Translations under genes and position numbers: made by a program | Assembly: GCA_903970395.1 (NCBI GenBank) | Contig: CAJCIM010000115.1 | Coordinates: forward strand, 1 to 33,252 | Direction: 5' to 3' | Length of the DNA stretch: 33,252 bases | Origin: Acidobacteriaceae bacterium | Lineage (GTDB): Bacteria; Acidobacteriota; Terriglobia; Terriglobales; Acidobacteriaceae | The notes under the pieces: model-generated | Databases searched by the model: none | What the model saw: the letters and a program-made list of their open reading frames with translations, nothing else | What the model was told of the DNA's origin: nothing | Shown: piece by piece, positions 1,219 through 18,214 of the stretch | How the letters are laid out: each line of letters begins with the position of its first letter | Numbering within the stretch: position 1 is the first letter of the stretch

Positions 1219-1219
1219 A

Positions 1220-2803: not shown

Positions 2804-2923
2804 GTACCGGGGTGTAGCCAGGGGGAATGCTTGTGGCGGTCGAATACCTCAGAAGCAGATTCCGTAGGGAGAGCCAACGGCAATAGCAAAGGCTGCCGAG
2901 CCGGGCCAGGGCTGGCAGCGTCA

Positions 2924-2970: not shown

Positions 2971-2984
2971 GAGATCGCCAGCCG

Positions 2985-5504
2985 TTAGCGCAGGGTGATC
3001 GTTTGGGGCTTGCCGGTGTTTGGCAGGGTTATGGCGTAGCCGAGCGCGGTGTGGTCGAGCTTAGCGGCGTTGCCGTTGGTGGTGGTGGCGGCGGAGGGTG
3101 CGGTGGCGAGGCCGATGGCCTCGATGCGGAGCTGGGTCCACCAGGGTTTGAAGGTGCCTTCGGGGGCGGGAATGGTGATGGTGAGAGCGCCGTCAGCGGT
3201 GAGGGCGCAGGTGAGGTGTAGGCGGAGGGAGTCGCCTTTGCGGAAGTTGTAGCTGATGCCGTCGTCCTGGTAGAGGTCGCCGGAGCAGGGGGAGTCGGGC
3301 GCGGGCGCGTAGACGCGGAGGGTTAGAGGGCCGTTGGGCTTTTCTTCGGTGGACTGTACGAGGGGCTGCATGGGGATGATGCTGCCGGCGCGGACGTAGA
3401 TGGGGAGCTGATCGAGCGTGGGCTGGATCATGACGGGTGCGAGCGGAGATTTGCCGGTCTCGGTGGGCTTGAGCGGATCACGGATCTCGAGGTCGCGGGC
3501 GGCGATGGACTGACGGCGGTCGAGCTTCGCGCCGGTCCAGTAGTCGTACCAGATGCCGGGCGGGAGGTGAACTTCGTAGGGCGCGATCTCGTCGGGTGAG
3601 GGGCTGGCCGCGACGAGGATGTCAGGGCCGAACATGAACTCTCCGGGAGCGTCGGTGTCGAGGGGGTGGTTGTCGGCGGTGGCGTGGGGGAACTCCAGGA
3701 AGAGCGGGCGGGTGATGGGGAGGCCGGTGCGCGAGGTCTCTTCGGCGATGGTGTAGAGGTAAGGCATCAGCCGGTAGCGCTCTTCGATGTAGCGGCGGCG
3801 GATGGTTTCGTGCTCGGGGCCGTCGACCCAGACCTCGTGCATGCGTGTGCCTTTGGCGGAGTGGTCGCGGTCGATGGGCTGGAAGGCAGCGACTTCGAGC
3901 CATTTGGTGAGCAGGTCTGCGGAGGGTGAGCCGGCGAAGCCGCCGACGTCGGCGCCGGTCATGGCGAAGCCGCTAAGGCCGAGGTTTTCGATCTGCGGTG
4001 TGGTCTGGCGGAGGTGGTTCCAGGTGGAGGAGTTGTCGCCTGTCCAGGTAGCGGCGTAGCGCTGTCCGCCGGCGTAGCTGGCCCGGGTGAGCACGAAGGG
4101 GCGCGTGTTGGGCGAGAGTGTGAGGAGGCCGTCCCATGTGGCGCGGGAGTTTTCCATGCCGAAGACGTTGTGGATCTCGGGGTGCATGGCGGTGCGTTTG
4201 CTGAAGCCTTCGCCGAGCGAGGCTGGCTCGTCGATGCGATGGACGACGTCGTCGGGCATGGTCTTGGTGGGATAGGTGAAGACGGCGGGCTCGTTCATGT
4301 CGTTCCAGAAGCCGGCGACCTTCATGTCGACGAAGTTCTTGTAGAGCGTGCCCCACCAGTCGCGGGTTGACTTCTGGGTGAAGTCGGGGAATACGCTGGG
4401 GCCGGGCCAGACGGGGCCAACGTACTCTTTACCGTTCTCTTTGACGAAGTGGTCGCCGGCGTGGCCGGAGTCGTATGGGGCGTAGCTCTGACCGGGGAGG
4501 TCGGCGATGTGGAGGTCGGTGATGAGGACGGTGCGGAGGTGCTCGGCGGCGAGACGGTGGATCATGCCAGGGAAGTCGGGGTAGTTGACGCTGTCGACGG
4601 TGAAGGGACGGTTCTTGTCCTGATAGTCGATGTCGAGGTAGATGGCGTCGGTGGGGATGTGATCGGCGCGGAGGCGAGTGGCTATCTCGTCGACCTGGGT
4701 TTCCGGGAAGTAGGTGTAGCGCGACTGCTGGAAGCCGAGAGTCCAGAGTGGCGGCAGCGGCGTGGGGCCGGTGAGCCAGGCGTAGGTTTCGACGACCTGT
4801 TTGGGTTCGGGGCCGTAGAGGATGTAGTAGTCGAGCGGGCCGGCGGGCGCGGAGAAGCTGTAGCGGTCGGTGCGGGCGCGTCCGAAGTCGAAGAAGGTGC
4901 GGAAGGTGTTGTCGAAGAGAACGCCGATGGTGCGACCGGAGTGCATCTCGAGGAAGAAGGGGATGGACTTGTAGATGGGGTCGGTGGACTCCTGCCAGCC
5001 GAAGTTGTCGGTGTTCCACATGGTGAAGGCTTCACCGTTGCGGTCGAGCGGACCAGGCTTGTCTCCGAGGCCGAAGAAGTGGTCTTCGAAGGGCTTGGAT
5101 TTGGTGACTGTAAATCCGTCGGTAGTCCACTGCACGGGGAGGGCGTCGTCCTGGAGGACGTTGCCGTCGAGGTCGGTGACGGTGAGGCGGAGGTCGTGGC
5201 CGAGTTTGACCTGGAGCGCGGAGGTGCTGAAGCCGTCGGGCTGTGCGGTGACGGCGACGCGGGCGGTGCGGGCGGCGGGCAGGACGGCCCAGGAGGCGTC
5301 TTCGGCGGGCTGACCGTTGGGCCACATGCGCACGCGAAGGACGTCGGGACGGAGTGCGTCGATGCGAAGCGTAAGCTGCGGGCCTGCGAGTTCGATGCCG
5401 CTGGAGGTGTGTGCGCTGGCGGGGAGAGCTTGCTGTGCGGCTAGCGGAAGGGCGGCGAGGAGGACAAACGATTGCAGAGCGAGCTTGAGGGGGCAACGAT
5501 ACAT
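2985..5504 (-). CDS. Secreted glycoside hydrolase family 31 (alpha-glucosidase type)
   Basis: This retaining alpha-glycosidase probably releases glucose or xylose from alpha-linked oligosaccharides outside the cytoplasm. A signal peptide covers residues 1-24 (hydrophobic QSFVLLAALPLAA, then QQA). An N-terminal beta-sandwich runs to about 250 and the TIM barrel to about 620, with beta domains after it. The GH31 signature GFWNDMNEP places the nucleophile at D402, and WTGDNSSTW places the likely acid/base at D490. YLDIDY near 289-294 is the conserved substrate-binding strand. The C-terminal part carries RAGSIIPMQP and a YQDDG motif typical of the family. At 839 residues it has normal length. It starts 47 bases after the binding-protein gene, with an operator-like site between them. 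Substrate specificity (maltose, isomaltose or xyloglucan fragments) is open. Confidence 0.93.
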   Translation of the reverse strand: MYRCPLKLALQSFVLLAALPLAAQQALPASAHTSSGIELAGPQLTLRIDALRPDVLRVRMWPNGQPAEDASWAVLPAARTARVAVTAQPDGFSTSALQVKLGHDLRLTVTDLDGNVLQDDALPVQWTTDGFTVTKSKPFEDHFFGLGDKPGPLDRNGEAFTMWNTDNFGWQESTDPIYKSIPFFLEMHSGRTIGVLFDNTFRTFFDFGRARTDRYSFSAPAGPLDYYILYGPEPKQVVETYAWLTGPTPLPPLWTLGFQQSRYTYFPETQVDEIATRLRADHIPTDAIYLDIDYQDKNRPFTVDSVNYPDFPGMIHRLAAEHLRTVLITDLHIADLPGQSYAPYDSGHAGDHFVKENGKEYVGPVWPGPSVFPDFTQKSTRDWWGTLYKNFVDMKVAGFWNDMNEPAVFTYPTKTMPDDVVHRIDEPASLGEGFSKRTAMHPEIHNVFGMENSRATWDGLLTLSPNTRPFVLTRASYAGGQRYAATWTGDNSSTWNHLRQTTPQIENLGLSGFAMTGADVGGFAGSPSADLLTKWLEVAAFQPIDRDHSAKGTRMHEVWVDGPEHETIRRRYIEERYRLMPYLYTIAEETSRTGLPITRPLFLEFPHATADNHPLDTDAPGEFMFGPDILVAASPSPDEIAPYEVHLPPGIWYDYWTGAKLDRRQSIAARDLEIRDPLKPTETGKSPLAPVMIQPTLDQLPIYVRAGSIIPMQPLVQSTEEKPNGPLTLRVYAPAPDSPCSGDLYQDDGISYNFRKGDSLRLHLTCALTADGALTITIPAPEGTFKPWWTQLRIEAIGLATAPSAATTTNGNAAKLDHTALGYAITLPNTGKPQTITLR

Positions 5505-5514
5505 AGCCCCATCA

Positions 5515-5528
5515 TGGTATCGCTTGCA
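5515..5528 (-). promoter_or_regulatory. LacI-family operator-like site upstream of GH31
   Basis: The minus strand reads TGCAAGCGATACCA, matching nine of the ten fixed bases of the LacI-family consensus TGNAANCGNTTNCA. It lies ten bases before the GH31 start codon, a position suited to repression. The galK promoter carries an exact match of the same consensus. Confidence 0.4.
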
Positions 5529-5551
5529 GCGGATGTGTGTGCGGAGCGGGG

Positions 5552-6538
5552 CTATTTGAGGAACTGAGTGGTATAGCCAAGCGTGGGGTCGATGGGTTGC
5601 TTGATGACGCCGAGGGAGTAGAGTTGCTCGGCGGTGGTCTTCCAGCGGGCGGGGTCGAATTGGCCGATGTACGCGCCGGTGGCGTCGTCGCCGGTGATGA
5701 AGTTGCCGGCCTTGAGGGTCTTGTAGGTGTAGTCGGCCCAGTCGGGGCTCATGGCGGGGTTGAGCTTTTCGATCATCGCGTTGGTGGCGGCGGGGTCGCG
5801 CATGTAATCCTGCCAGCCGCGGATCGAGGCACGGACAAACTTTGCGACGATGTCGGGGTGCTGCTTTGCGTAGTCGGTGGAGGTGAAGAAGACGCGGTAG
5901 GGATCGTAGCCTGCGTCGCGGTTGAGGAGCATGCGCGCGGGTGCACCACCCTTCTGAGCGAAGTAAGGCTCGGAGGTGAGGAAGCCCTGCTGGATGTAGT
6001 TGGGGTCCTGGATGAAGTTGGCGACGGAGAAGGTTGCGGGGACCTCATGCACATTATTGAGATTGAATTTGTGGACGAGGAACTCCCACCAGGTGGAGCC
6101 GGGTTTGACGGCGATGGTGTGGCCGTTGAGGTCGGTCCAGGTGTGTATGGGCGAGTTCTGGTGGATAAGGATGCCCTGCGGGTCGTGCTGCATGGTGGCA
6201 CCAATGGCGACGACGGGTTCGTGGGAGTTGGCGAGGGCTTCGAGGATGTGGTCGGAGGACTGCATGCCGAACTGGACGCTGCCGCTGGCGACGAGCGAGT
6301 CAGTAGAGGTATATGGGCCTCCGGGGAGGATGGTGACGTCGAGGCCTTCGTCCTTGTAGTAGCCCTTGAGCACGGCGGTGTAGAAACCGCCGTGCTCGGG
6401 CTGCGGATACCAGTCGGTCTGGAAGCTGATGGGTGTGAGACCGGAGGTGTTGGCTGGCTTGCGGCAGCCGAAGGTGAGCGCGAGCAGCGCGAGGGCGATG
6501 AGGCTGGTTCCGTAGCGCAGTGCGGGGTGGGGGCTCAT
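5552..6538 (-). CDS. ABC transporter substrate-binding lipoprotein, NMT1/THI5-SsuA type
   Basis: This is the solute-binding component of an importer for a small organic nitrogen or sulfur compound. The 328-residue product begins with a basic start and hydrophobic segment (residues 9-24) ending at LTFGC, so C25 is probably lipidated, although the -3 residue is not the usual Leu. The core resembles periplasmic proteins for formylaminopyrimidine, sulfonates, taurine or nitrate: DWYPQPEHGGFYTA near 41-54, then YYKDEGLDVTILPGG near 61-75, and later PTLGYTTQFLK. It is the only binding protein in the window. Its likely partners are the ATPase and permease genes at 12374-13932, on the other strand. 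The amidase gene ends 27 bases upstream, so the two are probably co-transcribed. The ligand cannot be read from sequence. Confidence 0.87.
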   Translation of the reverse strand: MSPHPALRYGTSLIALALLALTFGCRKPANTSGLTPISFQTDWYPQPEHGGFYTAVLKGYYKDEGLDVTILPGGPYTSTDSLVASGSVQFGMQSSDHILEALANSHEPVVAIGATMQHDPQGILIHQNSPIHTWTDLNGHTIAVKPGSTWWEFLVHKFNLNNVHEVPATFSVANFIQDPNYIQQGFLTSEPYFAQKGGAPARMLLNRDAGYDPYRVFFTSTDYAKQHPDIVAKFVRASIRGWQDYMRDPAATNAMIEKLNPAMSPDWADYTYKTLKAGNFITGDDATGAYIGQFDPARWKTTAEQLYSLGVIKQPIDPTLGYTTQFLK

Positions 6539-6565
6539 GCTTGCAGCGTAGCAAACTTTTGATGA

Positions 6566-7831
6566 TCAGAAGCTAAGAGCGGCACTGAGAGCTAGGAGAG
6601 CGGCGTCGCGGCCCATGGGTGCGACGAGTTGCATACCGCCGGGCAGAGTGACAACGGGAAAGCCGCAGAGGCTGACGGGCGCGGTGTAGCGGAGGATGCG
6701 GGTGCGGGTCTGGGTGTGGTCGTCTGCGGCGAACAGTGCCTGCGTGGGTGCGCAGGGGAGGAGCAGGTAGTCGAAACGTTCGAAGAGGGGGTTGGTGGCG
6801 GCGCGGAAGGCATGCAGACGTTGGTGGAGGGCTGCGAGCTGCTCGGGTGAGATGGATGCGCCCCAGGTCAGGCGGTCGGCGATCATGGGTTCGAAGTGCT
6901 GGAAGTGGCCACGGTGCAGGGCGGCCGCTTCGCTGGCCTGGATGGGCGCGAAGATGTCGATGGCATCGTGCCAGATAGATGCGTCGAAGTGGCCGAGCGC
7001 GATATTGTGCTGAGCGAGCTGCGATTTCCATTGTTTGAGTGCGGTGAGGACCTCGGGTTCGGTGTCGTGAAGGAACTCTGCGTTGGGTATGCCGATGGAG
7101 AGCGAGGCGAACTCGGGTGATACTGCGAGGGGAATATCGAAGAGAGCTTGAGCGAGCAGAGGGCCGTCGGTGAGGTCACGATAGAGCCAGCCGAGGGTGT
7201 CGAAGGCAGCGGCGAGATGTGCGCCACCTTGCCAGCGCGCTGACGTGTTGAGGGAGAGCGAGGAGCGATAGCCGCAGAGTCCGCAGAGCGCGGCTGGGAC
7301 GCGGACGGAGCCGCCGGTGTCTGTACCGATGGCGGCGAGTGCGGAGCCCTCTTGCACGCTGGCGGCTGCGCCGCTGGAGGAGCCGCCGGTGAGGCGTGTG
7401 GCGTCGCGCGGCTGGAGGCAGTCGCCGAAGTCGCGGCTTTGGCCGGTGATGCCGTAGGCGAGCTGATGCAGATGGGTCTTGCCGGTGATGATGGCTCCTG
7501 CGGAGCGCAGCTTTGCTGCGACGAAGGAGTCGGTCGTGGAGATTCCGTTCTGTTCGCGATAGAAGGTTGAGCCACAGGAGGTGGGGAAGCCGGTGAGGTC
7601 GAAGCAGTCTTTGAGCGAGACGGGGATGCCCCAGAGCGGCTGCGTGTCGATGTCTTCGCGGCGTAGATTTGCGGCCTGCTCGCGTGACCACGCTGCGTTC
7701 TGCGCGAGGTAGACGTTGTGGCCGTCGTTGCTGTTGGCTTGGCGGAGGACGCTCTCGAGTTCCGTGATGGGATCGGCAGTGTTGTTGCGGTAACGCTCGC
7801 GAAGCGAAGTAATGCTGGTGCCGGAGGACAT
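6566..7831 (-). CDS. Amidase-signature family hydrolase (AtzE/HpxY/GatA-like)
   Basis: This cytoplasmic amidase hydrolyses a C-N amide bond to release ammonia or an amine. The Ser-cisSer-Lys triad is complete: K74 in PVSLKDCF, the cis-Ser at S151 in TGGSSSGAAAS, and the nucleophile S175 in GTDTGGSVRVPA. At 421 residues it is slightly shorter than AtzE or HpxY, which act on 1-carboxybiuret and oxalurate. Members of that group usually need a GatC-like small subunit (AtzG/HpxX), and I find none nearby. The gene is divergent from the deaminase gene and precedes the binding-protein gene. The co-occurring HpxZ/AtzH-like gene at 14767 strengthens the link to ureide or biuret-like amides. A general amidase is the alternative. 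Confidence 0.88.
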   Translation of the reverse strand: MSSGTSITSLRERYRNNTADPITELESVLRQANSNDGHNVYLAQNAAWSREQAANLRREDIDTQPLWGIPVSLKDCFDLTGFPTSCGSTFYREQNGISTTDSFVAAKLRSAGAIITGKTHLHQLAYGITGQSRDFGDCLQPRDATRLTGGSSSGAAASVQEGSALAAIGTDTGGSVRVPAALCGLCGYRSSLSLNTSARWQGGAHLAAAFDTLGWLYRDLTDGPLLAQALFDIPLAVSPEFASLSIGIPNAEFLHDTEPEVLTALKQWKSQLAQHNIALGHFDASIWHDAIDIFAPIQASEAAALHRGHFQHFEPMIADRLTWGASISPEQLAALHQRLHAFRAATNPLFERFDYLLLPCAPTQALFAADDHTQTRTRILRYTAPVSLCGFPVVTLPGGMQLVAPMGRDAALLALSAALSF

Positions 7832-7837
7832 GCGGCG

Positions 7838-7843
7838 ATTGTA
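7838..7843 (-). promoter_or_regulatory. Possible -10 box of the amidase promoter
   Basis: The minus strand reads TACAAT six bases before the amidase ATG. No recognisable -35 box is present. If used, the transcript would be leaderless. Confidence 0.25.
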
Positions 7844-7889
7844 ACGGCGGCGTCGCGGGGTTCGCGAGAGGAGGCTTATTGGGGAAGCA

Positions 7890-7905
7890 GTTACAACGTG
7901 CTAAC
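7890..7905. promoter_or_regulatory. 16-bp dyad in the divergent amidase/deaminase promoter
   Basis: GTTANNACGTNNTAAC is a perfect palindrome except at two base pairs and sits seven bases before the deaminase ATG. It contains CGTGCTAA (7897-7904), which recurs in the ridA promoter dyad at 16598-16605 in the same orientation to its gene. It is a candidate operator for the nitrogen locus. Confidence 0.4.
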
Positions 7906-7912
7906 GTCGTGT

Positions 7913-8443
7913 ATGGCCCTGAGGATAAGCAAACCGTTGCGTGGCGCCGCGTTGGATGCGGAGCGGATGCGCGGTCTTGTCGCGTGGACGGCACGCACGC
8001 TTGAGACAGAGCATCCGGTGCCGTTTGGCGCGGAGATTGTGCACACCAAGACCGGCGAACGATTAATGCGTGCGACGAACGCTGTTCGGAAAGAGAATGA
8101 TCCGAGTTCCCATGCGGAGCTGCGCACGGTGCGGCTGGCTTGCAAGAAGCTGAAGGGGTTTTCTCTGAAAGGCTACACGATGTATACGACGTGTGAGCCT
8201 TGCCCGATGTGCATGGCTAACGCGTTGTGGGCGAACCTGGACCGCGTGGTGTTTGGTACGACGATCGCCGATGCGAACTGTTTCTGCAACCAGATTCAGA
8301 TACCGGCGACGGAGGTCGCGCATCGCAGCGATATGAAGTGCGCGGTGGTTGGGCCAGTGGAGCAGGCGCTGTGTCTTACACTGTTTACACACCCCAACAT
8401 GCAACGGGCCTTCCGTACGTGGAGCAGCCGAAAGAAGAAGTAG
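7913..8443 (+). CDS. Zinc-dependent nucleobase/nucleoside deaminase (GuaD/CDA superfamily)
   Basis: This enzyme would replace an exocyclic amino group on a heterocycle by a carbonyl and release ammonia. The 176-residue product has the complete zinc site: H67-A-E69 (SSHAELRTV) and PCPMC with C97 and C100; E69 is the proton shuttle. The layout matches bacterial guanine deaminases more than tRNA adenosine deaminases, with a C-terminal extension ending in SSRKKK. I chose ATG 7913 (MALRISKPLRG), although no clear ribosome site precedes it. GTG 7898 in the same frame has GGGGAAG ten bases upstream and is the alternative. Reading further upstream overlaps the amidase gene. It is the first gene of the seven-gene plus-strand unit. 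Guanine, an aminopyrimidine or an aminotriazine are all possible substrates. Confidence 0.85.
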   Translation: MALRISKPLRGAALDAERMRGLVAWTARTLETEHPVPFGAEIVHTKTGERLMRATNAVRKENDPSSHAELRTVRLACKKLKGFSLKGYTMYTTCEPCPMCMANALWANLDRVVFGTTIADANCFCNQIQIPATEVAHRSDMKCAVVGPVEQALCLTLFTHPNMQRAFRTWSSRKKK

Positions 8444-8482
8444 CGGCCTTGTAGTCACTAACGCGTAAGACAGGAGCCTTCG

Positions 8483-9853
8483 ATGAGTGATCTCGCCGCA
8501 GGATTGGAACGAGTCTTAGGTGATGGGTCGCGGGTGCTGACACAGCCGCAGGTGGTAGACCGGTTGTCCAGGGATTTCTATTGGTACTCGCCCATACTGA
8601 AGGCGATGCTAGATGACAAGCGTGCGGATGTGGTGGTGCAACCGGTGAGCGTGGGAGAGATCTGCGCGGTGTTGCGGTACTGTCATGGGAACGATGTACC
8701 GGTGACGGTGCGCGGTGCGGGCACTGGGAACTATGGGCAGGCGGTTCCGCTGCAGGGTGGTGTGGTGCTGGACCTGCAACGCATGGATCGGATTGAGGCG
8801 ATTGATGAGGACGGTGTTGCGGTGTGCGAGCCGTGCGTGAGGCTTGGTGCGCTGGAGACGAGTGCGCGCGAGGTAGGGTGGGAGCTACGGTGTTATCCGT
8901 CGACGGTGGCGAAGGCTTCGCTGGGCGGATTTCTTGGTGGTGGGTCGGGTGGCATCGGATCCGTGAAGCATGGTGGGCTGCGCGACTTTGCGACGGTGCG
9001 CGCGATTGAGATTGTCACGATGGAGGATGAGCCTCGTGTGGTGAAGCATGAGGGGCCGGCGGTGCATGAGATTCTGCATGCGTGGGGAACGAACGGCGTG
9101 ATGACGAAGATATGGTTTGCTCTGACGCCTGCGGTTGCTTGGTCGCAGATGGCGCTGGCGTTCAAGACGTTCGGCGAGGCGTTCACGTTTAGCGAGATGA
9201 TTGCGGTGGATGCCGTATGGGACAAGCGCCTGATCACGGTGTTCGAGTGGCCGCTGCCGTCGTTCTTCGGGCCGGTGAAGCCGTTGACGCGTGAGGGCGA
9301 GGCTTCGATCTTTCTGATGATTGCGGAGTCGCAGGTGGATGATTTGCAGATGGCTGCTGTTAAGGCCGGTGCGACGGTGACGCTTGCGCAGCCGTATGCG
9401 GGGCTGCGGTCGCAACCGTTGCTGTCGGATTACACGTGGAACCATACAACGCTGTGGGCGATGAAGGCTGATCCGGAGTACACATATCTGCAGTGCGGGT
9501 TCAAGCCGGAGCACGTGCGCGAACAGTTCGCGCTGCTGAAGGATAAGTATGGCGCGGATTTTCTGCTGCATATTGAGTGGATGAAGAACGGCGAGGGTGT
9601 GATGATTCCGGGGGCGATCCCTGTTGTGCGCTACAGCACCGAGGCACGATTGAACGAGATGATTGACTACTGCCGCGAGATTGGTGTGTTCGTTGCGAAC
9701 CCTCATGTGAACCATGTGGAGGGCGGCGGGCGGTACCGGGAGGACAATGTGCAACTGCTGGCGAAGTACAAGTATGACGCGAAGGGATTGATGAATCCGG
9801 GGAAGATGGCGAGCTTTGTGCGCAAGGATGCGATGGAGGAGCAACACGCATGA
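8483..9853 (+). CDS. FAD-binding oxidoreductase, GlcD-like (FAD_binding_4)
   Basis: This flavoprotein belongs to the PCMH/VAO fold group that includes glycolate and D-lactate oxidase subunits. The 456-residue product has the FAD pyrophosphate loop VRGAGTGNYGQ at residues 77-87 and the second FAD motif SLGGFLGGGSGGIGSVKHG at 146-164. It has a C-terminal substrate cap and ends with GLMNPGKM, a typical family ending. I see no Fe-S cysteine motif, so electrons probably go to oxygen or a soluble carrier. AGGAG lies six bases before the ATG. In this locus it could oxidise a C-N or C-OH bond; an imine product would suit the RidA protein encoded at 16109. That role is inference. Confidence 0.85.
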   Translation: MSDLAAGLERVLGDGSRVLTQPQVVDRLSRDFYWYSPILKAMLDDKRADVVVQPVSVGEICAVLRYCHGNDVPVTVRGAGTGNYGQAVPLQGGVVLDLQRMDRIEAIDEDGVAVCEPCVRLGALETSAREVGWELRCYPSTVAKASLGGFLGGGSGGIGSVKHGGLRDFATVRAIEIVTMEDEPRVVKHEGPAVHEILHAWGTNGVMTKIWFALTPAVAWSQMALAFKTFGEAFTFSEMIAVDAVWDKRLITVFEWPLPSFFGPVKPLTREGEASIFLMIAESQVDDLQMAAVKAGATVTLAQPYAGLRSQPLLSDYTWNHTTLWAMKADPEYTYLQCGFKPEHVREQFALLKDKYGADFLLHIEWMKNGEGVMIPGAIPVVRYSTEARLNEMIDYCREIGVFVANPHVNHVEGGGRYREDNVQLLAKYKYDAKGLMNPGKMASFVRKDAMEEQHA

Positions 9854-9863
9854 GGGCTGAGTT

Positions 9864-10658
9864 ATGAAGACATGGATTCCTGATACTCGCAAGTTTGCGT
9901 ACTTGAATTGGAAACAGGTGGAGGCGCTGCCAAAGGACAAGACTCTGCTGGTGCTGCCAACGGGTGCGATTGAGCAGCATGGGCATCATCTTCCGTTGGC
10001 GACCGATACGCTGACGAGCAATCTGTTGCTGGGACGTGCGCTACAGTTATTGCCGGATGATGTGCACATCTATGCGCTGGAGACGATTTGCTATGGGAAG
10101 AGCAATGAGCACATCGGTTTTCCGGGGACGATGACGCTGTCGGCGGCGACGTATATGGCGGTGCTGCGGGATATCGGCGCAAGCGTTGCTGCAGCAGGGA
10201 TCAAGAAGCTGCTGTTGTTCAACACGCATGGAGGGAACTCCGCGTTAAACGATGTGATGGCGCGGGACCTGCGCGCGGAGTTTGGGCTGCGGACGTTTCA
10301 CATGAGCGGCGGCGCGGGTGCGAAGCTGGAAGGCGTTGCGCCGCAAGAGGGGAAGTATGGTTTTCATGCAGGTGAGGTTGAGACGGCGTGGTTGCTGGCG
10401 GCGACTCCGGAGCTGGTGGATACAAGCGCTTATACGGTGAATTATATTGCGCGTATTGAGGACAACAATGTGTTGTCGCCCGAGAATGGGGCGGTGAATT
10501 TTGCGTGGCTGACGAGAGATATTTCGCCGAGTGGAGTGTTGGGTGATCCTCGCCCGGCGACAGCGGAGAATGGTGAGCGCTGGATTGCTGCGTGTGCAGA
10601 GAAGGCTGCCGCCGCGCTGATGGCTGCGTATGCGTATGAGAACCACTACATGCCGTAG
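9864..10658 (+). CDS. Creatininase-family amidohydrolase
   Basis: Enzymes of this family are binuclear-metal hydrolases that open cyclic amides (creatinine to creatine) or cleave formamides; MftE and ArfB are relatives. The 264-residue product keeps the metal-site motifs: GAIEQHGHHLPLATDT with E37, H39 and D48, NTHGGN with H122, and FHAGEVETAW with E173. NEHIGFPGTMTL at 81-92 is also typical. Length matches creatininase (about 260). The gene starts ten bases after the flavoprotein stop, and its own stop is directly followed by the next gene's ATG, so it is within an operon. No mycofactocin genes are nearby, making an MftE role unlikely. Ring opening of a lactam or deformylation are the plausible reactions. 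Confidence 0.88.
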   Translation: MKTWIPDTRKFAYLNWKQVEALPKDKTLLVLPTGAIEQHGHHLPLATDTLTSNLLLGRALQLLPDDVHIYALETICYGKSNEHIGFPGTMTLSAATYMAVLRDIGASVAAAGIKKLLLFNTHGGNSALNDVMARDLRAEFGLRTFHMSGGAGAKLEGVAPQEGKYGFHAGEVETAWLLAATPELVDTSAYTVNYIARIEDNNVLSPENGAVNFAWLTRDISPSGVLGDPRPATAENGERWIAACAEKAAAALMAAYAYENHYMP

Positions 10659-12377
10659 ATGCAGGTGGGAACGTTGATGGGTGAGAGCTTGCGGTTAGAG
10701 TGCGGTGATGGTGTGACGCTAGAGCGCGGCGTGTGGTGCCGAATGTCCGATGGCACGGTGTTGCGGTCGGACCACTACTATCCGCGTGGAGGTGGGAAGA
10801 ACGCGACGCTGTTAATGCGTCAGCCGTATGGCCGGGACATTGCTTCGACGGTGGTGTATGCGCATCCGGCGTGGTTTGCGAGGCGCGGGTACAACGTTGT
10901 GATTCAGGATGTGCGCGGGCGGGGCGGATCGGAGGGAGAGTTCTATCCGTTTCGCAACGAGGGTCGTGATGGTGCGGAGACGATTGCGTGGCTGCGGGAG
11001 CGGCCGGAGTCGAATGGGCGCGTGGGGATGTATGGGTTCTCTTACCAGGGGATGACGCAGTTGCTGGCGGCGGCAGAGCAGCCGGAGGGGTTGGAGTGCA
11101 TTGCGCCGGCGATGACAGTGTGTGATCTGTATGCGGGATGGTTTTATCACAACGGCGCGTTGCGGCTTGCGTCGTCGCTGGGTTGGGGCGTGCAGATGCT
11201 GAAAGAGGATGCTGTACGGTGCGGACTGCACGAGGCGCGCATGAAGCTGGAGGCTGCGTGGACGAATCTGCGCGCGCAGATGTGGGCGATGCCGTATGCG
11301 GAGCATGCGGCGATTGTTGATCCGGGGTTGCCGTCGTATGTGCGCGACTGGTTTGAACACGATGCGCAGGGCGAGTATTGGTGCGCGATGGATGTGGGCA
11401 CGCGCGCGACGAAGATTGCAGTGCCGGCGCTGCATGTTTCGGGGTGGTATGACACGTATCTTGAAGGCAGCGTGCGTGGGTTTGAGCTGTTGCGGAGGCA
11501 TGCGGGTACGGAGCATGCGCGGGAGAATCAGTATCTGCTTGCAGGGCCGTGGGTGCATATTCCGTGGGGTGATCGTGTGGGCGAGTGTGACTTTGGGACT
11601 GCGGCTCGGTTGAATACGGACGAACTGTTGTTGCGATGGTTTGATCATTGGTTGAAGGATGCGAGCACCTTTGCGGATGAGCCGAAGGTGAGGCACTTCG
11701 CAATGGGCGCGAACCGGTGGTTTGCTGCGGACGACTGGCGTGGAAGCGCGGAGAAGGTGATGTATCTGCACAGTGGAGGGCGTGCGGAGTCTCGTAAGGG
11801 AGATGGGGCGCTGTCGAGTGAGGTTGGAATCGAAGAGTCGCCGGATGTGTTTGTGTATGACCCGGAGGTGCCGGTGATGTCTCCGGGTGGACCGATGGGT
11901 GTTAGCGGGCCTACGGACCAGGCTGTGCTGGAGATGGGGAATAATCTGCTGGTGTATACGAGCGCGCCGCTCGTTGAGGTGCTGCATGTGCTCGGTGCGC
12001 CGAAGGTGTCGGTGTATGTTTCGACGTCGGCGACGCATGCCGATGTTGTGGCGAAGCTGGTGCGCGTGATGGCTAGCGGTCGCGCTGAGTTTGTATGTAT
12101 CGGTATTGCGCGGTCGACATATCTGTTTGGCGATGCGTATGAGGCGGACAAAGTTCAACACTGGGAGTTTGAGTTGGAGCCGACTTCGACGATGTTTGCA
12201 GTGGGTGAGTGCGTGAGGCTCGAAGTTGCGGGGTGCGCGTTTCCGCTCTATGATCGCAACTCGTCGAATGAGACGAAGCCTGGCAGGATGACGCCGTGGA
12301 ACTGGGGTCGTTCGACGCATGTGGTGTTTCATGACGCGGAGCGGCCGTCGTCGATCGCGCTGCGGGTGGTGGCATGA
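10659..12377 (+). CDS. CocE/NonD family hydrolase (X-Pro dipeptidyl-peptidase S15 type)
   Basis: This alpha/beta hydrolase cleaves esters or amides; relatives include cocaine esterase and alpha-amino-acid esterases. The catalytic triad is visible: S128 in GFSYQG, D265 in SGWYDTYLEG and H300 in GPWVHIPWGD. The oxyanion Tyr is probably in RQPYGRD at residues 54-60. A C-terminal jelly-roll domain begins near residue 330 (FAMGANRW) and ends with NRNSSNETKPG-like family sequence. No signal peptide is seen, so it is cytoplasmic. The ATG at 10659 abuts the creatininase stop; ATG 10677 is an alternative start. Its last four bases overlap the ATPase gene (ATGA). A role in nitrogen-compound breakdown is inferred only from the operon. 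Confidence 0.87.
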   Translation: MQVGTLMGESLRLECGDGVTLERGVWCRMSDGTVLRSDHYYPRGGGKNATLLMRQPYGRDIASTVVYAHPAWFARRGYNVVIQDVRGRGGSEGEFYPFRNEGRDGAETIAWLRERPESNGRVGMYGFSYQGMTQLLAAAEQPEGLECIAPAMTVCDLYAGWFYHNGALRLASSLGWGVQMLKEDAVRCGLHEARMKLEAAWTNLRAQMWAMPYAEHAAIVDPGLPSYVRDWFEHDAQGEYWCAMDVGTRATKIAVPALHVSGWYDTYLEGSVRGFELLRRHAGTEHARENQYLLAGPWVHIPWGDRVGECDFGTAARLNTDELLLRWFDHWLKDASTFADEPKVRHFAMGANRWFAADDWRGSAEKVMYLHSGGRAESRKGDGALSSEVGIEESPDVFVYDPEVPVMSPGGPMGVSGPTDQAVLEMGNNLLVYTSAPLVEVLHVLGAPKVSVYVSTSATHADVVAKLVRVMASGRAEFVCIGIARSTYLFGDAYEADKVQHWEFELEPTSTMFAVGECVRLEVAGCAFPLYDRNSSNETKPGRMTPWNWGRSTHVVFHDAERPSSIALRVVA

Positions 12378-13141
12378 CAACTGTGCCTGAGGTGTTGTTC
12401 AAAGGCGTGAGCAAGAGGTTTGCTGCGAACGCTGCGCCGGTGCTCGATGGCATCGACATGTCGATTGAGCGTGGTGAGTTTGTTTCGATTGTGGGGCCTT
12501 CGGGGTGCGGGAAGTCGACGCTGCTGAAGCTGGTCGCCGGGCTTTCGGCGTGTACGAGCGGCGAGATCGCGGTGAATGGGATGCAGCCGAAGAACGCGCG
12601 GGAGATGGTGTCCTTCGTCTTTCAGGATGCGACGCTGCTGCCGTGGCGAACGGTGGAGCGCAATGTGGCGCTGGCGTTGGAGTTAGAGGGGCGGACACGC
12701 GATGAGACTGCGGCGGCTGTTGCAAAGCTGCTGGAGCTCGTTGGGCTGGCAGAGGTTGGCAAGAGTTATCCGCGGCAGCTTTCGGGTGGGATGAAGATGC
12801 GGGTTTCGATTGCGAGAGCGCTCGCGACTCGGCCACGCGTGCTGTTGATGGATGAGCCGTTTGCCGCGCTGGATGAGATGACGCGTGATCGCATGAATGA
12901 GGAGCTGTTGCGGCTACGCGGGGAGCAGAACTGGACGGTGCTGTTTGTGACTCACTCGGTTGCGGAGGCGGTGTTTCTTTCGTCGCGGGTGGTCGTGCTC
13001 GCGCCGCATCCAGGCAGGGTTGCGCATGAGGTTGTTGTCGATCTGCCGTATCCGCGTACGGGAGAGACGCGCGAGAGTGAGGCCTTTGATGCGTTGGTGA
13101 ACAAGACGTCGAAGCTTCTGCGGGAGGCATATCGGGGATGA
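12374..13141 (+). CDS. ABC transporter ATP-binding protein, SsuB/TauB/ThiZ type
   Basis: This is the ATPase of an importer for small organic nitrogen or sulfur compounds. All motifs are intact in 255 residues: Walker A GPSGCGKST at 41-49, Q-loop Gln at 84 (VFQDATLLPW), signature LSGGM at 136-140, Walker B LLMDEPFAALD at 157-167 and the switch His at 194 (VTHS). The signature continues KMR instead of the more common RQR. The start overlaps the hydrolase stop and the stop overlaps the permease start, each by four bases, which suggests translational coupling. Its binding protein is probably the one encoded at 5552 on the minus strand. Confidence 0.93.
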   Translation: MTTVPEVLFKGVSKRFAANAAPVLDGIDMSIERGEFVSIVGPSGCGKSTLLKLVAGLSACTSGEIAVNGMQPKNAREMVSFVFQDATLLPWRTVERNVALALELEGRTRDETAAAVAKLLELVGLAEVGKSYPRQLSGGMKMRVSIARALATRPRVLLMDEPFAALDEMTRDRMNEELLRLRGEQNWTVLFVTHSVAEAVFLSSRVVVLAPHPGRVAHEVVVDLPYPRTGETRESEAFDALVNKTSKLLREAYRG

Positions 13142-13932
13142 AGAGCAAGTTGAAGCTCCTGCTCAATTCGGTTGCGGTGTTTGCGGCGTTGCTTGCGATG
13201 TGGCAGGGCATTATCTGGGCGTTTGCTGTGCCGAGCTATATGCTGCCGTCGCCGTGGGTTGTGGCAAAGACGTTTGCGATGCGCCTGCCTGACCTGTGGG
13301 CGTCGACGATGATCTCGGCTGAAGCTGCGGTGGGTGGGCTGCTTGCCAGCATTGTCGTTGGGGTGCTGATTGCGCTGGTCTTTGCGCGTTCGCGTTGGAT
13401 ACGGACGATGTTCTATCCATACACGATTTTGCTGCAGACCGTACCCATTGTGGCGATTGCTCCGCTGATTCTGATGTGGGTGGGGCAAGGGATACTGTCA
13501 GTTGGTGTTGTTGCTTTCATCATCTGCCTGGCTCCGATTATTGCGAACACCACGCAGGGGTTGGTGAGCGTGGACGAGAATCTGGTTCAACTGTTTTTGA
13601 TGCACAATGCGTCGCAGGGACAGATTCTGCGTAAGCTACGGCTGCCGCACTCGCTGCCGTATTTGTTTGTGGGAGTGAGAATTTCTAGCGGCATTGCGGT
13701 GATTGGAGCGATTACGGGGGAGCTGTTTGCCGGCTCCGGACAGGTTGGGCGCGGAGGCATCGGCTACTCGATTCTTTACGCGCAGACACAGGTGCAGACA
13801 GACTATCTTTTTGCGCTTGTGATTGCGGCTACTGTGCTGGGATTTACGCTCTTCTTTGCGGTGATGTTCTTTGAGTGGCTTGCGTTGCACCACTGGCACG
13901 AGTCAGCGGCGGAGAGCCGCGCTGATGGGTAG
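13138..13932 (+). CDS. ABC transporter permease, SsuC/TauC/ThiX type
   Basis: This integral membrane subunit forms the importer channel with the ATPase encoded just before it. The 264-residue product has about six hydrophobic helices, from LLNSVAVFAALLAMWQGIIW at the N-terminus to the segment around ALVIAATVLGFTLFFAVMFF. The cytoplasmic EAA loop, which docks the ATPase, is recognisable as NASQGQILRKLRLPHSLPYL near residues 160-180. Length and layout fit permeases for nitrate, taurine, sulfonates and formylaminopyrimidine. The start codon overlaps the ATPase stop by four bases (ATGA). Confidence 0.92.
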   Translation: MKSKLKLLLNSVAVFAALLAMWQGIIWAFAVPSYMLPSPWVVAKTFAMRLPDLWASTMISAEAAVGGLLASIVVGVLIALVFARSRWIRTMFYPYTILLQTVPIVAIAPLILMWVGQGILSVGVVAFIICLAPIIANTTQGLVSVDENLVQLFLMHNASQGQILRKLRLPHSLPYLFVGVRISSGIAVIGAITGELFAGSGQVGRGGIGYSILYAQTQVQTDYLFALVIAATVLGFTLFFAVMFFEWLALHHWHESAAESRADG

Positions 13933-13940
13933 CGTTTCGT

Positions 13941-14777
13941 GTGGAGGTAGATGACTTGCTAAGACTGGAGACAGAGGATGGTTGGTGGCTCGTTACGCAT
14001 CCGGATCATGCGCATCTTGCAGGCGAGTTTGCATCGCACTGGGGCAACGCACTGTTTTCTACGCCAGAGCCGCGCGAGCAGGTGCTGCGTGGGATCTACA
14101 GGCATGATGATGGGTGGCGTGAGCGCGACAGAACGCCCGCGGTGACGAAGCAGGGCAAGCCAGCGGCGTTTTCGACGGAGCTGGTCGGGACGTACTCGGC
14201 GTTTGAGGAGATCGATCTTGCGGCGTATCTTGAGGTGCGTCGCGAGGCTGTGCAGTTGATTGCGATGGAAGATCCGTATGCGGCGATTCTGATCTCGATG
14301 CATACGCATAATCTGTTGTCCGAGCGTGCTGACCGCAGTACGATTCGAGCGGATGAGCTGCCGTGGCTGGATGCCTTTCTCGTGGAGCAGATGACGCTGC
14401 AGCGGGCGCTGCGAGAGCGGTTGCTGAATGGTGGAACAGTTGCTAAGGATCATCTGACGGCGGAGGCGCTGCATCGCAATTTTCAGTTGCTACAGGCGTG
14501 CGACAACTTGTCGCTGCTGAGTTGTGTGGACTTTGGCCGGGATGCGACGTTGCTGCATCCGTTTGAGTTGCGTGATGGCAAGACGCGTGAGGTGAAGGTG
14601 CAGCGTGTGGGCGAGCGAGCGTTTCGGCTGACGCCGTATCCGCTGGCTACAGAGGAAATTTCGTTTAAGCTGCGAGCGCGATTTGTGGCGGGCAAGGAGT
14701 TTGCCAGCGCGGCTGCGTTGAAGGCTGCGATGGATCTGGCGCGGTATGAGGAGCTTGAGGTGCGGATTACGGCTTAG
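13941..14777 (+). CDS. DUF3891 family protein
   Basis: The function of this family is unknown. The 278-residue product starts at GTG 13941, eight bases after the permease stop. It is rich in potential metal ligands arranged as short motifs: H20, H23 and H25 (THPDHAHLAG), HDDGW at H55-D57 and MHTHNL with H121 and H123. The N-terminal THPDHAHLAG plus HDDGW pattern is what I use to place it in DUF3891. The pattern of His and HD dyads recalls HD-domain hydrolases, but I cannot assign a reaction. It closes the plus-strand unit. Its last 11 bases overlap the 3' end of the convergent NTF2-like gene. Confidence 0.8.
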   Translation: MEVDDLLRLETEDGWWLVTHPDHAHLAGEFASHWGNALFSTPEPREQVLRGIYRHDDGWRERDRTPAVTKQGKPAAFSTELVGTYSAFEEIDLAAYLEVRREAVQLIAMEDPYAAILISMHTHNLLSERADRSTIRADELPWLDAFLVEQMTLQRALRERLLNGGTVAKDHLTAEALHRNFQLLQACDNLSLLSCVDFGRDATLLHPFELRDGKTREVKVQRVGERAFRLTPYPLATEEISFKLRARFVAGKEFASAAALKAAMDLARYEELEVRITA

Positions 14778-15159
14778 GCTGCGGCAAGGTCGATACATGC
14801 GCGGAGACGATGCGCCAACCTTCGGCCATGCGTACCCACACCTGACTCTGGCGACCGCGAACGATGCCGTTTGGGCTGTCGCGTTCGAACTCGAGTGTGA
14901 CACTGCCGAAGTCTGTGCCGAAGGTGACGATCTCAAGACGGATGGTGCGACGCGCGAGGTTTACCGCTGGGCGTGACTTGCGGAAGGCTTCGATCTCGTC
15001 GGTGCCGTAGAGGTTTTCGGCTGCTCCGAGGCGGATGGCATAGGGGGAGTGCCAGAACATCGCGGTGAGCGTGTCGACATCGTTGTTGACGAGTGCGGTT
15101 TCGTAGCGGGGATAGAGTTCGCGGAGTTCGGCTACGGTGGCGGGATCGTTGATGGTCAC
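14767..15159 (-). CDS. HpxZ/AtzH-like protein, NTF2 fold (DUF3225 type)
   Basis: The 130-residue product resembles HpxZ of the oxalurate (hpxWXYZ) cluster and AtzH of the cyanuric acid operon, both NTF2-like proteins with no settled reaction. Family traits seen are YPRYETALVNNDVDTL at 16-31, FWHSPYAIRLGAAENLYGTDEI at 35-56, RKSRPAVNLARR and the C-terminal WRIVSAHVS. The start is GTG at 15159, supported by AGGAG five bases upstream; this ribosome site overlaps the stop codon of the formamidase gene. It is the last gene of the ridA-formamidase unit and overlaps the DUF3891 gene tail to tail. In known clusters it accompanies an AtzE/HpxY amidase, and such an amidase is encoded here at 6566. Confidence 0.82.
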   Translation of the reverse strand: MTINDPATVAELRELYPRYETALVNNDVDTLTAMFWHSPYAIRLGAAENLYGTDEIEAFRKSRPAVNLARRTIRLEIVTFGTDFGSVTLEFERDSPNGIVRGRQSQVWVRMAEGWRIVSAHVSTLPQPKP

Positions 15160-15167
15160 GGCGGCTC

Positions 15168-16106
15168 CTAGCTTGTGGGGAAGAGGATGCGCGGTGGGAG
15201 AATGCTCTTTGCGATGGCTGCGGAGACGGTGATCATGGGCTCGTTGACGACCTGGCTGATCTGCAGCTTCATGGCTACGCTGCAGAGCAGGTAGGCGTGG
15301 ACGGGGTCGAACCTCCAGCGTGAGACGAGGAGGTCAACCATGCGATCCGAGGCGTTGCGCGCGGCGGTGAGAGCGTCGGTATACGACTCGACGACGAGCC
15401 AGGAGGGGCCGTTCTCGTCGGACGGTGCGGACTCGATGAGTGGGGCGGAGAGGGATTGGTGTTTGTGTAGAGTGAAGCGGAGTGAGACGTCGGCGGGGCA
15501 TTCGATGCCGTTGATGCAAACCTCGCCGTCGCCCTGCGCGGCGTGCGCGTCGCCGCAGGAGAAGAGTGCGCCGGGTTGCTGGACGGGGAGATAGAGGGTC
15601 GCGCCGGTGGCGAGTTCGCGGACGTCCATGTTGCCGCCGAAGATGCCGGGCGGCCGTGTGCGGAGCTCACCCTGTTCTGCGGGCGCGACGCCCATGACGC
15701 CGCAGAATGGGCGTAGTGGAAGGACGGCCGGCGCGAGTGAGTGCGAGGTGTCGCCTTCGAGGGTCCAGTGAAAGAGAAAGGGATCGGCGAAGCGTTGTTT
15801 GAGGAAGCCGAGGCCGGGGATTACGCTGGACCAGCCCCAGCCCTTGTGGAGGACGCTGAGGATGTCGACTTGGAGGACGTCTCCGGGGGCGGCACCGGCG
15901 ATGGCAACGGGGCCGGTGAGTGAGTGGATGAGATTGCGGTCGATATTCTGGAACTCATCGACTGTCATTCCGGGGTGGACCTGTGCGCCGCTGGCGTCGA
16001 CGCACTCGAAGTGCACTGTATCGCCGGAGGTGATGGTGAGACGGGGCGGCAGGGCGGCGTTCCAGCGGGAGTGTGTGGGTTGTGCTGAGAGGGAGTGTTC
16101 CGCCAT
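15168..16106 (-). CDS. Acetamidase/formamidase family protein
   Basis: These hydrolases split formamide or acetamide into ammonia and the acid. The 312-residue product follows the FmdA/AmdA family along its length: SGDTVHFECVDASG at 27-40, APGDVLQVDI at 73-82, GVMGVAPAEQG at 135-145, GGNMDVRELATG at 157-168, SCGDAHAAQGDGEVC at 183-197 and VNEPMITVSA near the end. There is no signal peptide. The gene starts two bases after the RidA stop and its own stop overlaps the ribosome site of the next gene, so the three are one unit. In this locus it would consume a small amide released by ring cleavage. The exact amide is not determined. Confidence 0.9.
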   Translation of the reverse strand: MAEHSLSAQPTHSRWNAALPPRLTITSGDTVHFECVDASGAQVHPGMTVDEFQNIDRNLIHSLTGPVAIAGAAPGDVLQVDILSVLHKGWGWSSVIPGLGFLKQRFADPFLFHWTLEGDTSHSLAPAVLPLRPFCGVMGVAPAEQGELRTRPPGIFGGNMDVRELATGATLYLPVQQPGALFSCGDAHAAQGDGEVCINGIECPADVSLRFTLHKHQSLSAPLIESAPSDENGPSWLVVESYTDALTAARNASDRMVDLLVSRWRFDPVHAYLLCSVAMKLQISQVVNEPMITVSAAIAKSILPPRILFPTS

Positions 16107-16108
16107 AG

Positions 16109-16582
16109 CTAGATTTCCACCGTCATCTGTAGTTCAACGAGTGCGTTGCGGGGCAGTCCGCTGACGCCAATGGCTGCTCTGACGTGGCGACCCGGTTCGC
16201 CGAAGATGGACATGAAGAGGTCGGAGGCGCCGTTGATGACCTTGGGTGAGTCTGCGAACTGAGGGACGGAGTTGACGTAGCCATTCACCGTGAGGATGCT
16301 GCGAATCTTGTCGAGAGAGCCGAGGTGGGATTCGAGGACTGCGAGTTGCATGAGAGCACAGCTGCGTGCCGCGGCGTAACCCTCTTCGATGGTGCAATCA
16401 AGACCTACTGTTCCGGTGATGATGCCTTCGGGAGTCTGCGAGACAACGCCGGCGAGGTAGACGATGTTGCCGCAGGTTTTGGCGGAGGTGTAGTTGCCTC
16501 CGGGCACCGACGGAGGCGGCAGCTTAATGCCGAGGGATTCCAACGCGATGTACGGAGCGATGTTCGGGCGAGGAGGATTCAT
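16109..16582 (-). CDS. RidA (YjgF/YER057c/UK114) family protein
   Basis: Members hydrolyse reactive enamine/imine intermediates; some act in pyrimidine catabolism, such as RutC. The 157-residue product is longer than archetypal RidA (about 130) because of an N-terminal extension with LGIKLPPPSVPGGNY, as in the subgroup I know as YjgF_YER057c_UK114_like_1. The key residues R135 (HVRAAIGVSGLP) and E150 (ALVELQMTVEI) are kept, consistent with imine hydrolysis. It is the first gene of a three-gene unit with its own promoter candidate. Next to a flavoprotein and a deaminase, a role in clearing imines formed during breakdown of a nitrogen compound is plausible but inferred. Confidence 0.9.
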   Translation of the reverse strand: MNPPRPNIAPYIALESLGIKLPPPSVPGGNYTSAKTCGNIVYLAGVVSQTPEGIITGTVGLDCTIEEGYAAARSCALMQLAVLESHLGSLDKIRSILTVNGYVNSVPQFADSPKVINGASDLFMSIFGEPGRHVRAAIGVSGLPRNALVELQMTVEI

Positions 16583-16589
16583 TGCGATG

Positions 16590-16604
16590 GTGCTACTTTA
16601 GCAC
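16590..16604. promoter_or_regulatory. Dyad GTGCTA-N3-TAGCAC over the ridA -10 box
   Basis: A perfect 6-bp inverted repeat with a three-base centre covers the proposed -10 element of ridA. Its CGTGCTAA extension (16605-16598 on the minus strand) is identical to that in the deaminase promoter at 7897-7904. Confidence 0.45.
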
Positions 16605-16622
16605 GCGATTTTCAGGCGTAAA
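16595..16622 (-). promoter_or_regulatory. Candidate ridA promoter
   Basis: On the minus strand TTTACG (16622-16617) and TAAAGT (16600-16595) match four of six bases each to the sigma-70 -35 and -10 boxes with a 16-base spacer, 12 bases before the ATG. The leader would be about five bases. Confidence 0.4.
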
Positions 16623-16662
16623 TGGTAGCCCGAAGGGACCGCTGCGATAGCATAATGAGACA

Positions 16663-16675
16663 CTCCTCGCAGGAG
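16663..16675 (+). promoter_or_regulatory. Ribosome site of the DUF2165 gene within a small hairpin
   Basis: AGGAG (16671-16675) lies eight bases before the ATG and is exactly complementary to CTCCT three bases upstream. The 5-bp hairpin could hide the ribosome site. Confidence 0.4.
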
Positions 16676-16683
16676 CAGACTCT

Positions 16684-17175: not shown

Positions 17176-17187
17176 GGATTTGTACAT

Positions 17188-17230
17188 CCCACCCTAGCCG
17201 TGACGAAGCCGCGGCGTGGGTGGGGTACCC
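17188..17230. repeat. Extragenic palindrome with GGGGTACC tail between convergent genes
   Basis: The left arm CCCACCCTAGCCGTG pairs with the right arm CGCGGCGTGGGTGGG at about 12 of 15 positions and is followed by GTACCC. It lies between the converging DUF2165 and galE genes, where it could also terminate both. It resembles the elements at 2784 and 2924. Confidence 0.5.
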
Positions 17231-17239
17231 GGCTTTGTA

Positions 17240-18211: not shown

Positions 18212-18214
18212 GCG

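Follow-up and report, generated by a model that had tools for sequence, protein, structure and literature searches.

Gene content and organisation of the locus

We analysed a stretch of 33,252 nucleotides (the window) from an Acidobacteriaceae bacterium, contig CAJCIM010000115.1 of a draft assembly (GCA_903970395.1; 3.8 Mb, 214 contigs). Positions 5552–16582 of the window hold twelve genes, which make up a putative locus for the import and degradation of pterins. An original prediction, made from the sequence alone, had placed twelve genes here and named their families; each proved to be an open reading frame in the expected place, and the families were borne out by Pfam matches, curated equivalog cut-offs being applied to calls of identity. 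The genes, together with a possible thirteenth, are as follows.

5552–6538, minus strand: substrate-binding lipoprotein (SBP) of an ATP-binding cassette (ABC) importer, NMT1/THI5 family (Pfam NMT1, 5e-38; LTFGC lipobox)
6566–7831, minus strand: amidase-signature hydrolase (Pfam Amidase, 7e-57; K74, S151 and S175 conserved)
7913–8443, plus strand: zinc deaminase of the cytidine-deaminase fold, proposed pterin deaminase (dCMP_cyt_deam_1, 5e-19; HAE and PCxxC invariant)
8483–9853, plus strand: flavin adenine dinucleotide (FAD) flavoprotein, 6v42 type (FAD_binding_4, 3e-28; profile E-value 7e-137 to 6v42)
9864–10658, plus strand: creatininase-family metal hydrolase, HGGN and HAGE motif type (Pfam Creatininase, 1e-67)
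10659–12377, plus strand: CocE/NonD-family alpha/beta hydrolase (Peptidase_S15, 1e-65, with PepX_C; TIGR00976, 387 bits, above cut-off)
12374–13141, plus strand: ABC importer ATPase (ABC_tran, 1e-34)
13138–13932, plus strand: ABC importer permease (BPD_transp_1, 2e-27)
13941–14777, plus strand: DUF3891 protein (PF13030, 1e-45)
14767–15159, minus strand: AtzH/HpxZ-like protein (AtzH-like, 2e-48; HpxZ NF033625, 151.6 bits, cut-off 135)
15168–16106, minus strand: acetamidase/formamidase-family hydrolase (FmdA_AmdA, 4e-54)
16109–16582, minus strand: RidA-like protein, YjgF_endoribonc type (PF14588, 3e-18; R135 conserved)
16684–17175, plus strand: DUF2165 small membrane protein, possible thirteenth member (PF09933, 1e-59)

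The twelve genes fall into three units, within which the gaps range from −4 to +39 nucleotides. The first, on the minus strand, runs from the amidase to the SBP. The second, on the plus strand, runs from the deaminase through the flavoprotein, the creatininase-family protein, the CocE hydrolase, the ATPase and the permease to DUF3891, and the third, again on the minus strand, comprises RidA, the formamidase and AtzH in that order. The start codons of the deaminase, most likely the ATG at 7913, and of the amidase lie back to back, 81 nucleotides apart. No Rfam family matched the window at the gathering threshold.

Conservation and distribution

A search of the whole collection with the creatininase-family protein yielded 114 confirmed loci, 80 of which were kept; a gene was scored as present at a tblastn score of at least 60 bits, and contig ends cut many of the loci. 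The flavoprotein is found in all 80, the deaminase in 79, CocE in 76, the SBP in 72, the ATPase in 71 and the permease in 70, followed by the amidase (64), DUF3891 (62), the formamidase (41), AtzH (34) and RidA (32). The order deaminase–flavoprotein–creatininase–CocE–ATPase–permease is the same in 62 of the 64 loci with enough flanking sequence, the exceptions being L090 and L166, which are without CocE and ATPase and, in L090, without the permease too. DUF3891 is present in 57 of 61 loci with enough flank, and the amidase and SBP occur together in 45 of the 54 that have a full upstream flank. Where both flanks are complete (42 loci), 31 of the 34 loci from outside the Verrucomicrobiota have at least one of AtzH, formamidase and RidA, and 23 have all three.

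The major facilitator superfamily (MFS), glycoside hydrolase family 31 (GH31) and epimerase genes that flank the locus recur in only one, two and one of the 80 loci, respectively, so the unit ends where the original prediction put it, with the possible exception of the DUF2165 gene beside RidA. Found in 23 of the 80 loci and annotated next to the Ruegeria cluster as well, this gene could be a thirteenth member. Overall, we conclude that the twelve genes are one conserved unit and that their conservation is well beyond chance. The claim that they form a single unit for import and nitrogen-heterocycle catabolism was to be abandoned if they were not neighbours in related genomes; across the 80 loci they are neighbours.

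Judged by record titles, 22 of the loci are from Verrucomicrobiota and the other 58 nearly all from Acidobacteriota or its groups. One locus, L126, is labelled Rhodanobacteraceae; it is of the acidobacterial type, with the amidase–SBP pair at the opposite end, and reflects either transfer or a misbinned contig. The distribution is patchy: flavoprotein matches at 1e-60 occur in 6 of 297 Acidobacteriota genomes, and creatininase-family matches of at least 71% identity (best segment) in 8 of 61 relatives, the genome of the window being counted in both cases. The nearest named relatives of the creatininase-family gene belong to Granulicella, also of the Acidobacteriota, the copy in Granulicella paludicola DSM 22464 being 90% identical. 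Genome G171 has two flavoprotein copies (C9:348631-349983 and C1:2762-4087), and one of the two matches contains an internal TGA.

The flavoprotein

A profile built from orthologues of the flavoprotein matched PDB entry 6v42 with an E-value of 7e-137, the next chain, LctD, following at 3e-24, and phmmer gave 1e-96 for 6v42. An AlphaFold2 model (mean predicted local distance difference test score, pLDDT, of 82) superimposes on 6v42 with a template-modelling (TM) score of 0.88 and 38% identity over nearly the full length. Moreover, in an alignment of 81 rows, 74 positions common to the window protein and 6v42 are conserved at 97% or higher. The entry is entitled 'Crystal structure of the flavin oxygenase with cofactor bound involved in folate catabolism'. 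The flavoprotein had been described as GlcD-like, a description that does not hold: on the model of the glycolate oxidase subunit GlcD, TIGR00387, it scores 78.5 bits against an equivalog cut-off of 567.9. We conclude from these homologies that it is a flavin oxygenase of the 6v42 'folate catabolism' type and no close relative of GlcD. Among the matches listed in a literature search that left most subscription journals outside its coverage, we found no paper on the 6v42 enzyme or on pterin ring opening.

Proteobacterial clusters and the two deaminase types

Fourteen plasmid regions, chosen for variety, were viewed for comparison. The flavoprotein, a creatininase-family protein, an amidohydrolase-type deaminase and RidA occur together in 12 of the 14, and 11 of these 12 have a related SBP; the two regions without the set are from Roseomonas (L173) and Methylobacterium (L179, unannotated). 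The Rhizobium leguminosarum pRle248e cluster (L167) encodes a creatininase-family protein, an SBP, an ATPase, a permease, a 'cytosine deaminase', the flavoprotein, an NAD(P)H-dependent oxidoreductase (FMN_red/Flavodoxin_2) and RidA, and its flavoprotein shares 66% identity with 6v42. Against PRK07583, whose cut-off is 403 bits, the deaminase of this cluster scores 696.9; four others, at 221–298 bits, fall short. PRK07583 proteins presumably include Arad3529, and the abstract of the Arad3529 study is said to speak of an undescribed pterin degradation pathway. Amidohydrolase-type pterin deaminases of Agrobacterium (Arad3529) and Variovorax deaminate folate, and the Variovorax enzyme pteroate too; the Variovorax deaminase gene is followed downstream by a conserved 'endoribonuclease' gene (PMC9513972). 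The original prediction held that the route matched no pathway known to its author. The route probably fits one of a known, if barely described, kind, the degradation of the pterin or folate ring; Proteobacteria have a comparable set of importer, creatininase, flavoprotein and deaminase, together with a RidA of another subfamily.

The deaminase of the window is of another type. Its zinc motifs, HAE and PCxxC, are those of cytidine deaminases and are invariant, and its relatives in the PDB are deoxycytidine, guanosine and guanine deaminases. This type is present in 79 of the 80 Acidobacteriota and Verrucomicrobiota loci and in none of the 14 plasmid regions (at 1e-6), and the window deaminase had no match at 1e-20 among 72,556 plasmid records. 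Conversely, the 80 loci hold no PRK07583-like, amidohydrolase-type deaminase. Fifteen Acidobacteriota genomes that carry the locus were searched for this deaminase too; every one gave matches, but these were weak, never exceeding 29.3 bits, and none reached the cut-off. Within the loci, regions and genomes examined, the two deaminase types are mutually exclusive. Since the locus has no amidohydrolase-type deaminase, it is set apart from the proteobacterial 6v42-type cluster and we do not file it as a plain member of that kind.

This exchange of one deaminase for the other is our main argument, and on it we propose that the window deaminase acts on the substrate of the proteobacterial enzyme. 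The argument is one from context. Guanine and pterin have a 2-amino-4-oxopyrimidine half in common, so a guanine-deaminase-like enzyme would be a sensible replacement. To our knowledge, no pterin deaminase of the cytidine-deaminase fold has been reported.

Putative uptake and ring-opening proteins

The orthologue profile of the SBP matches PDB 4nmy, THI5 and ThiY (3ix1), and a DWxPxxxH stretch is common to it, THI5 and ThiY. Families recurring in the flanks (at least 6 of the 80 loci) comprise two types of outer-membrane barrel, an 8-oxoguanine-deaminase-like amidohydrolase, a protein of about 298 residues and, identified by eye, an aldo-keto-reductase-like protein. The gene for a large barrel with a carboxypeptidase-regulatory domain adjoins the cluster in 22 of the 80 loci, on the Acidobacteriota side, and in 15 of the 22 lies between DUF3891 and AtzH; a TonB-dependent receptor occurs in 15 Verrucomicrobiota loci. 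Neither barrel query matched the window. Next to DUF3891 in L145 (15383-16882) lies an unusual fusion protein, in which an NMT1-type binding domain precedes two matches to the TonB C-terminal domain; related proteins (at least 38% identity) occur in 11 of the 80 loci, all Verrucomicrobiota.

The creatininase-family protein keeps E37, H39, D48, H122 and E171 and has HGGN where aligned creatininases show HYEN. The assignment made by the original prediction stands at the level of the family and fails at that of the equivalog, TIGR04448 scoring 87.8 bits against a cut-off of 235, and creatinine degradation was rejected. In a tree, the Acidobacteriota and Verrucomicrobiota copies group together (81/100). 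BrbF, an enzyme of the creatininase family, deformylates a formamidopyrimidine (PMC9478397), and deformylation is accordingly an alternative for the step proposed for this protein.

Amidase, AtzH, CocE, formamidase and DUF3891

The locus had also been compared with HpxZ/AtzH and AtzE/HpxY, which act together. The first half of the comparison survives: the AtzH-like protein lies above the HpxZ cut-off and shares 46% identity with the AtzH encoded by pADP-1. Residues Y19 and R43 are retained; if the published numbering is offset by three, as the cloning primer suggests, these are the two residues described there as catalytic, Tyr22 and Arg46 (PMC6219798). The second half of the comparison fails, the amidase being no AtzE/HpxY by curated cut-offs; it scores 161.9 of 461 and 151.9 of 425.75 bits as AtzE, and falls below the allophanate hydrolase cut-off too, while keeping K74, S151 and S175. 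The gaps beside it (27 and 81 nucleotides) are too small for AtzG, for which the genome gave no match, a weak result since the search control was silent. Neither AtzD nor AtzF is among the twelve. The CocE hydrolase conserves S128, D265 and H300. As the FmdA equivalog, the formamidase was rejected (NF045496, 110.1 of 500 bits), its match being at family level only.

A Roseomonas mucosa plasmid cluster (L173:8986-16912) combines a creatininase, another ABC importer, an amidase, hpxZ and CocE, and Azospirillum and Pseudoroseomonas have amidase–hpxZ pairs beside which no AtzG is annotated. Because of this set and these lone pairs, the amidase, AtzH and CocE appear to make up a portable module, serving here perhaps for the products of ring opening.

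DUF3891 has invariant His and Asp residues and gave a confident model (pLDDT 88.6), which returned no fold match in the PDB at E≤0.001; by sequence, the best PDB match has an E-value of 0.14. Of three distant homologues viewed on plasmids, two have nothing telling around them; the third, on an archaeal (Halomarina) plasmid (L185:8001-8855), lies near two isochorismatase–amidohydrolase pairs, another possible nitrogen-compound setting.

A proposed pathway and its alternatives

On balance, we favour the view that the locus imports and degrades pterins, the 2-amino-4-oxopteridines that form the ring of folate and related cofactors. The analysis shows the gene content and its conserved linkage, the kinship of the flavoprotein, the retention of catalytic residues and the complementary spread of the two deaminase types; we infer every reaction and their order, and also the substrate, for which homology and a depositor's title speak. 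The SBP and ABC importer would take up free pterin, which seems a likelier substrate than folate because the families that recur around the 80 loci include none resembling carboxypeptidase G. The guanine-deaminase-like enzyme would remove the 2-amino group, converting pterin to lumazine, and the 6v42-type flavoprotein would then oxidise the pyrazine half of the ring. The resulting cyclic amide may be opened by the creatininase-family hydrolase, which could instead remove a formyl group, and RidA would hydrolyse enamine or imine products. Finally, the amidase, the AtzH-like protein, CocE, the formamidase and DUF3891 may break the fragments into ammonia, formate and small acids. Speculatively, a 6,7-dioxo ring, if formed by the oxidation, would open to an oxalyl amide, a fitting substrate for an amidase that is partnered by a protein of the oxalurate (HpxZ) type. 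The order proposed above is the simplest that uses the genes. Outside support extends to its first two steps, deamination and flavin oxidation, and the late steps are guesswork.

A bolder form of the proposal, to which we give rather less than even credence, is that the Acidobacteriota and Verrucomicrobiota have a self-contained pathway for mineralising the pteridine ring, with dedicated uptake through the outer membrane and an ABC importer, a deaminase of the cytidine-deaminase fold acting on pterins, flavin oxidation, creatininase-type opening and a fragment module in which DUF3891 is a new enzyme. Such a pathway, if real, is undescribed as a whole.

Several observations weigh against the pterin reading. 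The folate-catabolism label of 6v42 is the depositor's title only, and an identity of 38% leaves room for a different substrate. That the relatives found by the SBP profile bind or make thiamine-type pyrimidines speaks partly for the proposal, but the named ones in the PDB have to do with thiamine pyrimidines and not with pterins. Neither the window nor any of the 80 loci matches the flavin mononucleotide (FMN) reductase that Rhizobium has in its cluster, and the window RidA belongs to another subfamily, the PF14588 type; neither of two proteobacterial RidA queries matched the window or the 80 loci. The creatininase tree, whose outgroup branches are very long, leaves the kinship with proteobacterial copies and paralogues undecided. 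The amidase is missing from the remaining nine of the 54 loci with a full upstream flank, and AtzH, formamidase and RidA from all eight fully flanked Verrucomicrobiota loci. DUF3891 occurs in 47 of 396 Acidobacteriota genomes, and six regions fetched for it (L081–L086) are without the locus. Lastly, the 8-oxoguanine-deaminase-like amidohydrolase in 12 of the 80 loci, all Verrucomicrobiota (for example L140:1117-2505; 507 of 532 bits), could point to a purine, as could its counterpart, with its own SBP and 2-oxoglutarate (2OG)-Fe(II) oxygenase, beside the Klebsiella and Rahnella clusters (L168:16888-18306; L174:2405-3832).

Some of these observations would fit the same architecture acting on another aminated ring, either a thiamine-type pyrimidine (hydroxymethyl- or formylaminopyrimidine) or guanine or 8-oxoguanine. 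In that case the SBP and deaminase would indicate the actual substrate, and the flavoprotein would differ from 6v42 in specificity. The kinship of the SBP with 4nmy, THI5 and ThiY, that of the deaminase with guanosine and guanine deaminases, and the 8-oxoguanine-deaminase-like genes in the Verrucomicrobiota loci and the Klebsiella and Rahnella regions all speak for such a ring. The only close solved relative of the flavoprotein is nevertheless labelled for folate catabolism, the twelve genes include neither a uricase nor an allantoinase, and we consider this explanation unlikely. Less likely still is the presence of two adjacent pathways, one for pterins (importer, deaminase, flavoprotein and creatininase) and an independent one for amide breakdown (amidase, AtzH, formamidase and CocE) with a substrate of its own. 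The Roseomonas plasmid, with creatininase, amidase, hpxZ, CocE and another importer and with neither flavoprotein nor deaminase, the solitary amidase–hpxZ pairs and the eight Verrucomicrobiota copies without AtzH, formamidase and RidA speak for this; against it, CocE and DUF3891 lie within the core operon, the core order is kept almost throughout (62 of 64), and most fully flanked loci on the Acidobacteriota side (31 of 34) retain at least one of AtzH, formamidase and RidA. A plain oxalurate, cyanuric acid or creatinine pathway, as the family names would suggest, we regard as very improbable. The HpxZ score and the kept catalytic residues of AtzH agree with it, but the amidase is far below the AtzE cut-offs, the creatininase equivalog is missed, AtzD and AtzF are not among the twelve and the amidase has no room for AtzG beside it, the absence of genome matches to AtzG being a weak further point in view of the silent control.

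Flanking sequence

The locus is flanked by a GluP-type sugar transporter and a GH31 glycosidase (1263-5504) on one side and by galE/galT/galK-like genes (17240-20616; galT by eye) on the other. The sugar transporter and epimerase flank it in two near relatives (L067 and L068) too, and rarely elsewhere. The protein of about 298 residues lies beside RidA in L112 (11855-12751); it has relatives in 9 of the 80 loci and gave no Pfam match at 1e-5. The GC skew in 2-kb windows is 0.24–0.33 across positions 1–18000 and 0.09–0.22 beyond, despite genes on both strands.

Comparison with known systems

Among the closest known systems is the Rhizobium cluster. Its flavoprotein is 41% identical to that of the window, its creatininase-family protein 37%, and its importer is homologous in the ATPase (47%), the permease (38%) and the SBP (34%); it also contains a deaminase and a RidA of another subfamily. 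The deaminases differ, that of Rhizobium belonging to the amidohydrolase superfamily and that of the window to the cytidine-deaminase fold, and the window amidase, CocE, DUF3891, AtzH and formamidase have no matches in the Rhizobium cluster. The Roseomonas cluster supplies part of this remainder, bringing together homologues of the creatininase (39%), amidase (31%), AtzH (50%) and CocE (38%); its importer is a different one, and the flavoprotein, deaminase, DUF3891, formamidase and RidA are unmatched there. The AtzDGEHF cyanuric acid operon of pADP-1 resembles the window in having an AtzH homologue (46%) and an amidase-signature enzyme in one locus (PMC6219798). It differs in that the window amidase lies outside the AtzE family, AtzD and AtzF are not among the twelve genes and AtzG is unmatched in a search whose control was silent. 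With the pyrimidine-precursor binding proteins ThiY and THI5, the window SBP has its NMT1/THI5 family and the DWxPxxxH stretch in common; the gene context is different.

In the degradation of folate by Variovorax sp. F1, through a carboxypeptidase G and a pterin deaminase, deamination of the pterin ring is an early step, as we propose for the locus described here. The Variovorax deaminase is of the amidohydrolase type, and the study, as far as its available text goes, ends at deaminated products and leaves the breakdown beyond them open (PMC9513972). Little has been described of how the nitrogen and carbon of the pterin ring re-enter their cycles. Beside these systems, the locus stands as a compact gene set conserved in two phyla, in which one deaminase fold appears to have been replaced by another and in which DUF3891 acquires a metabolic context.

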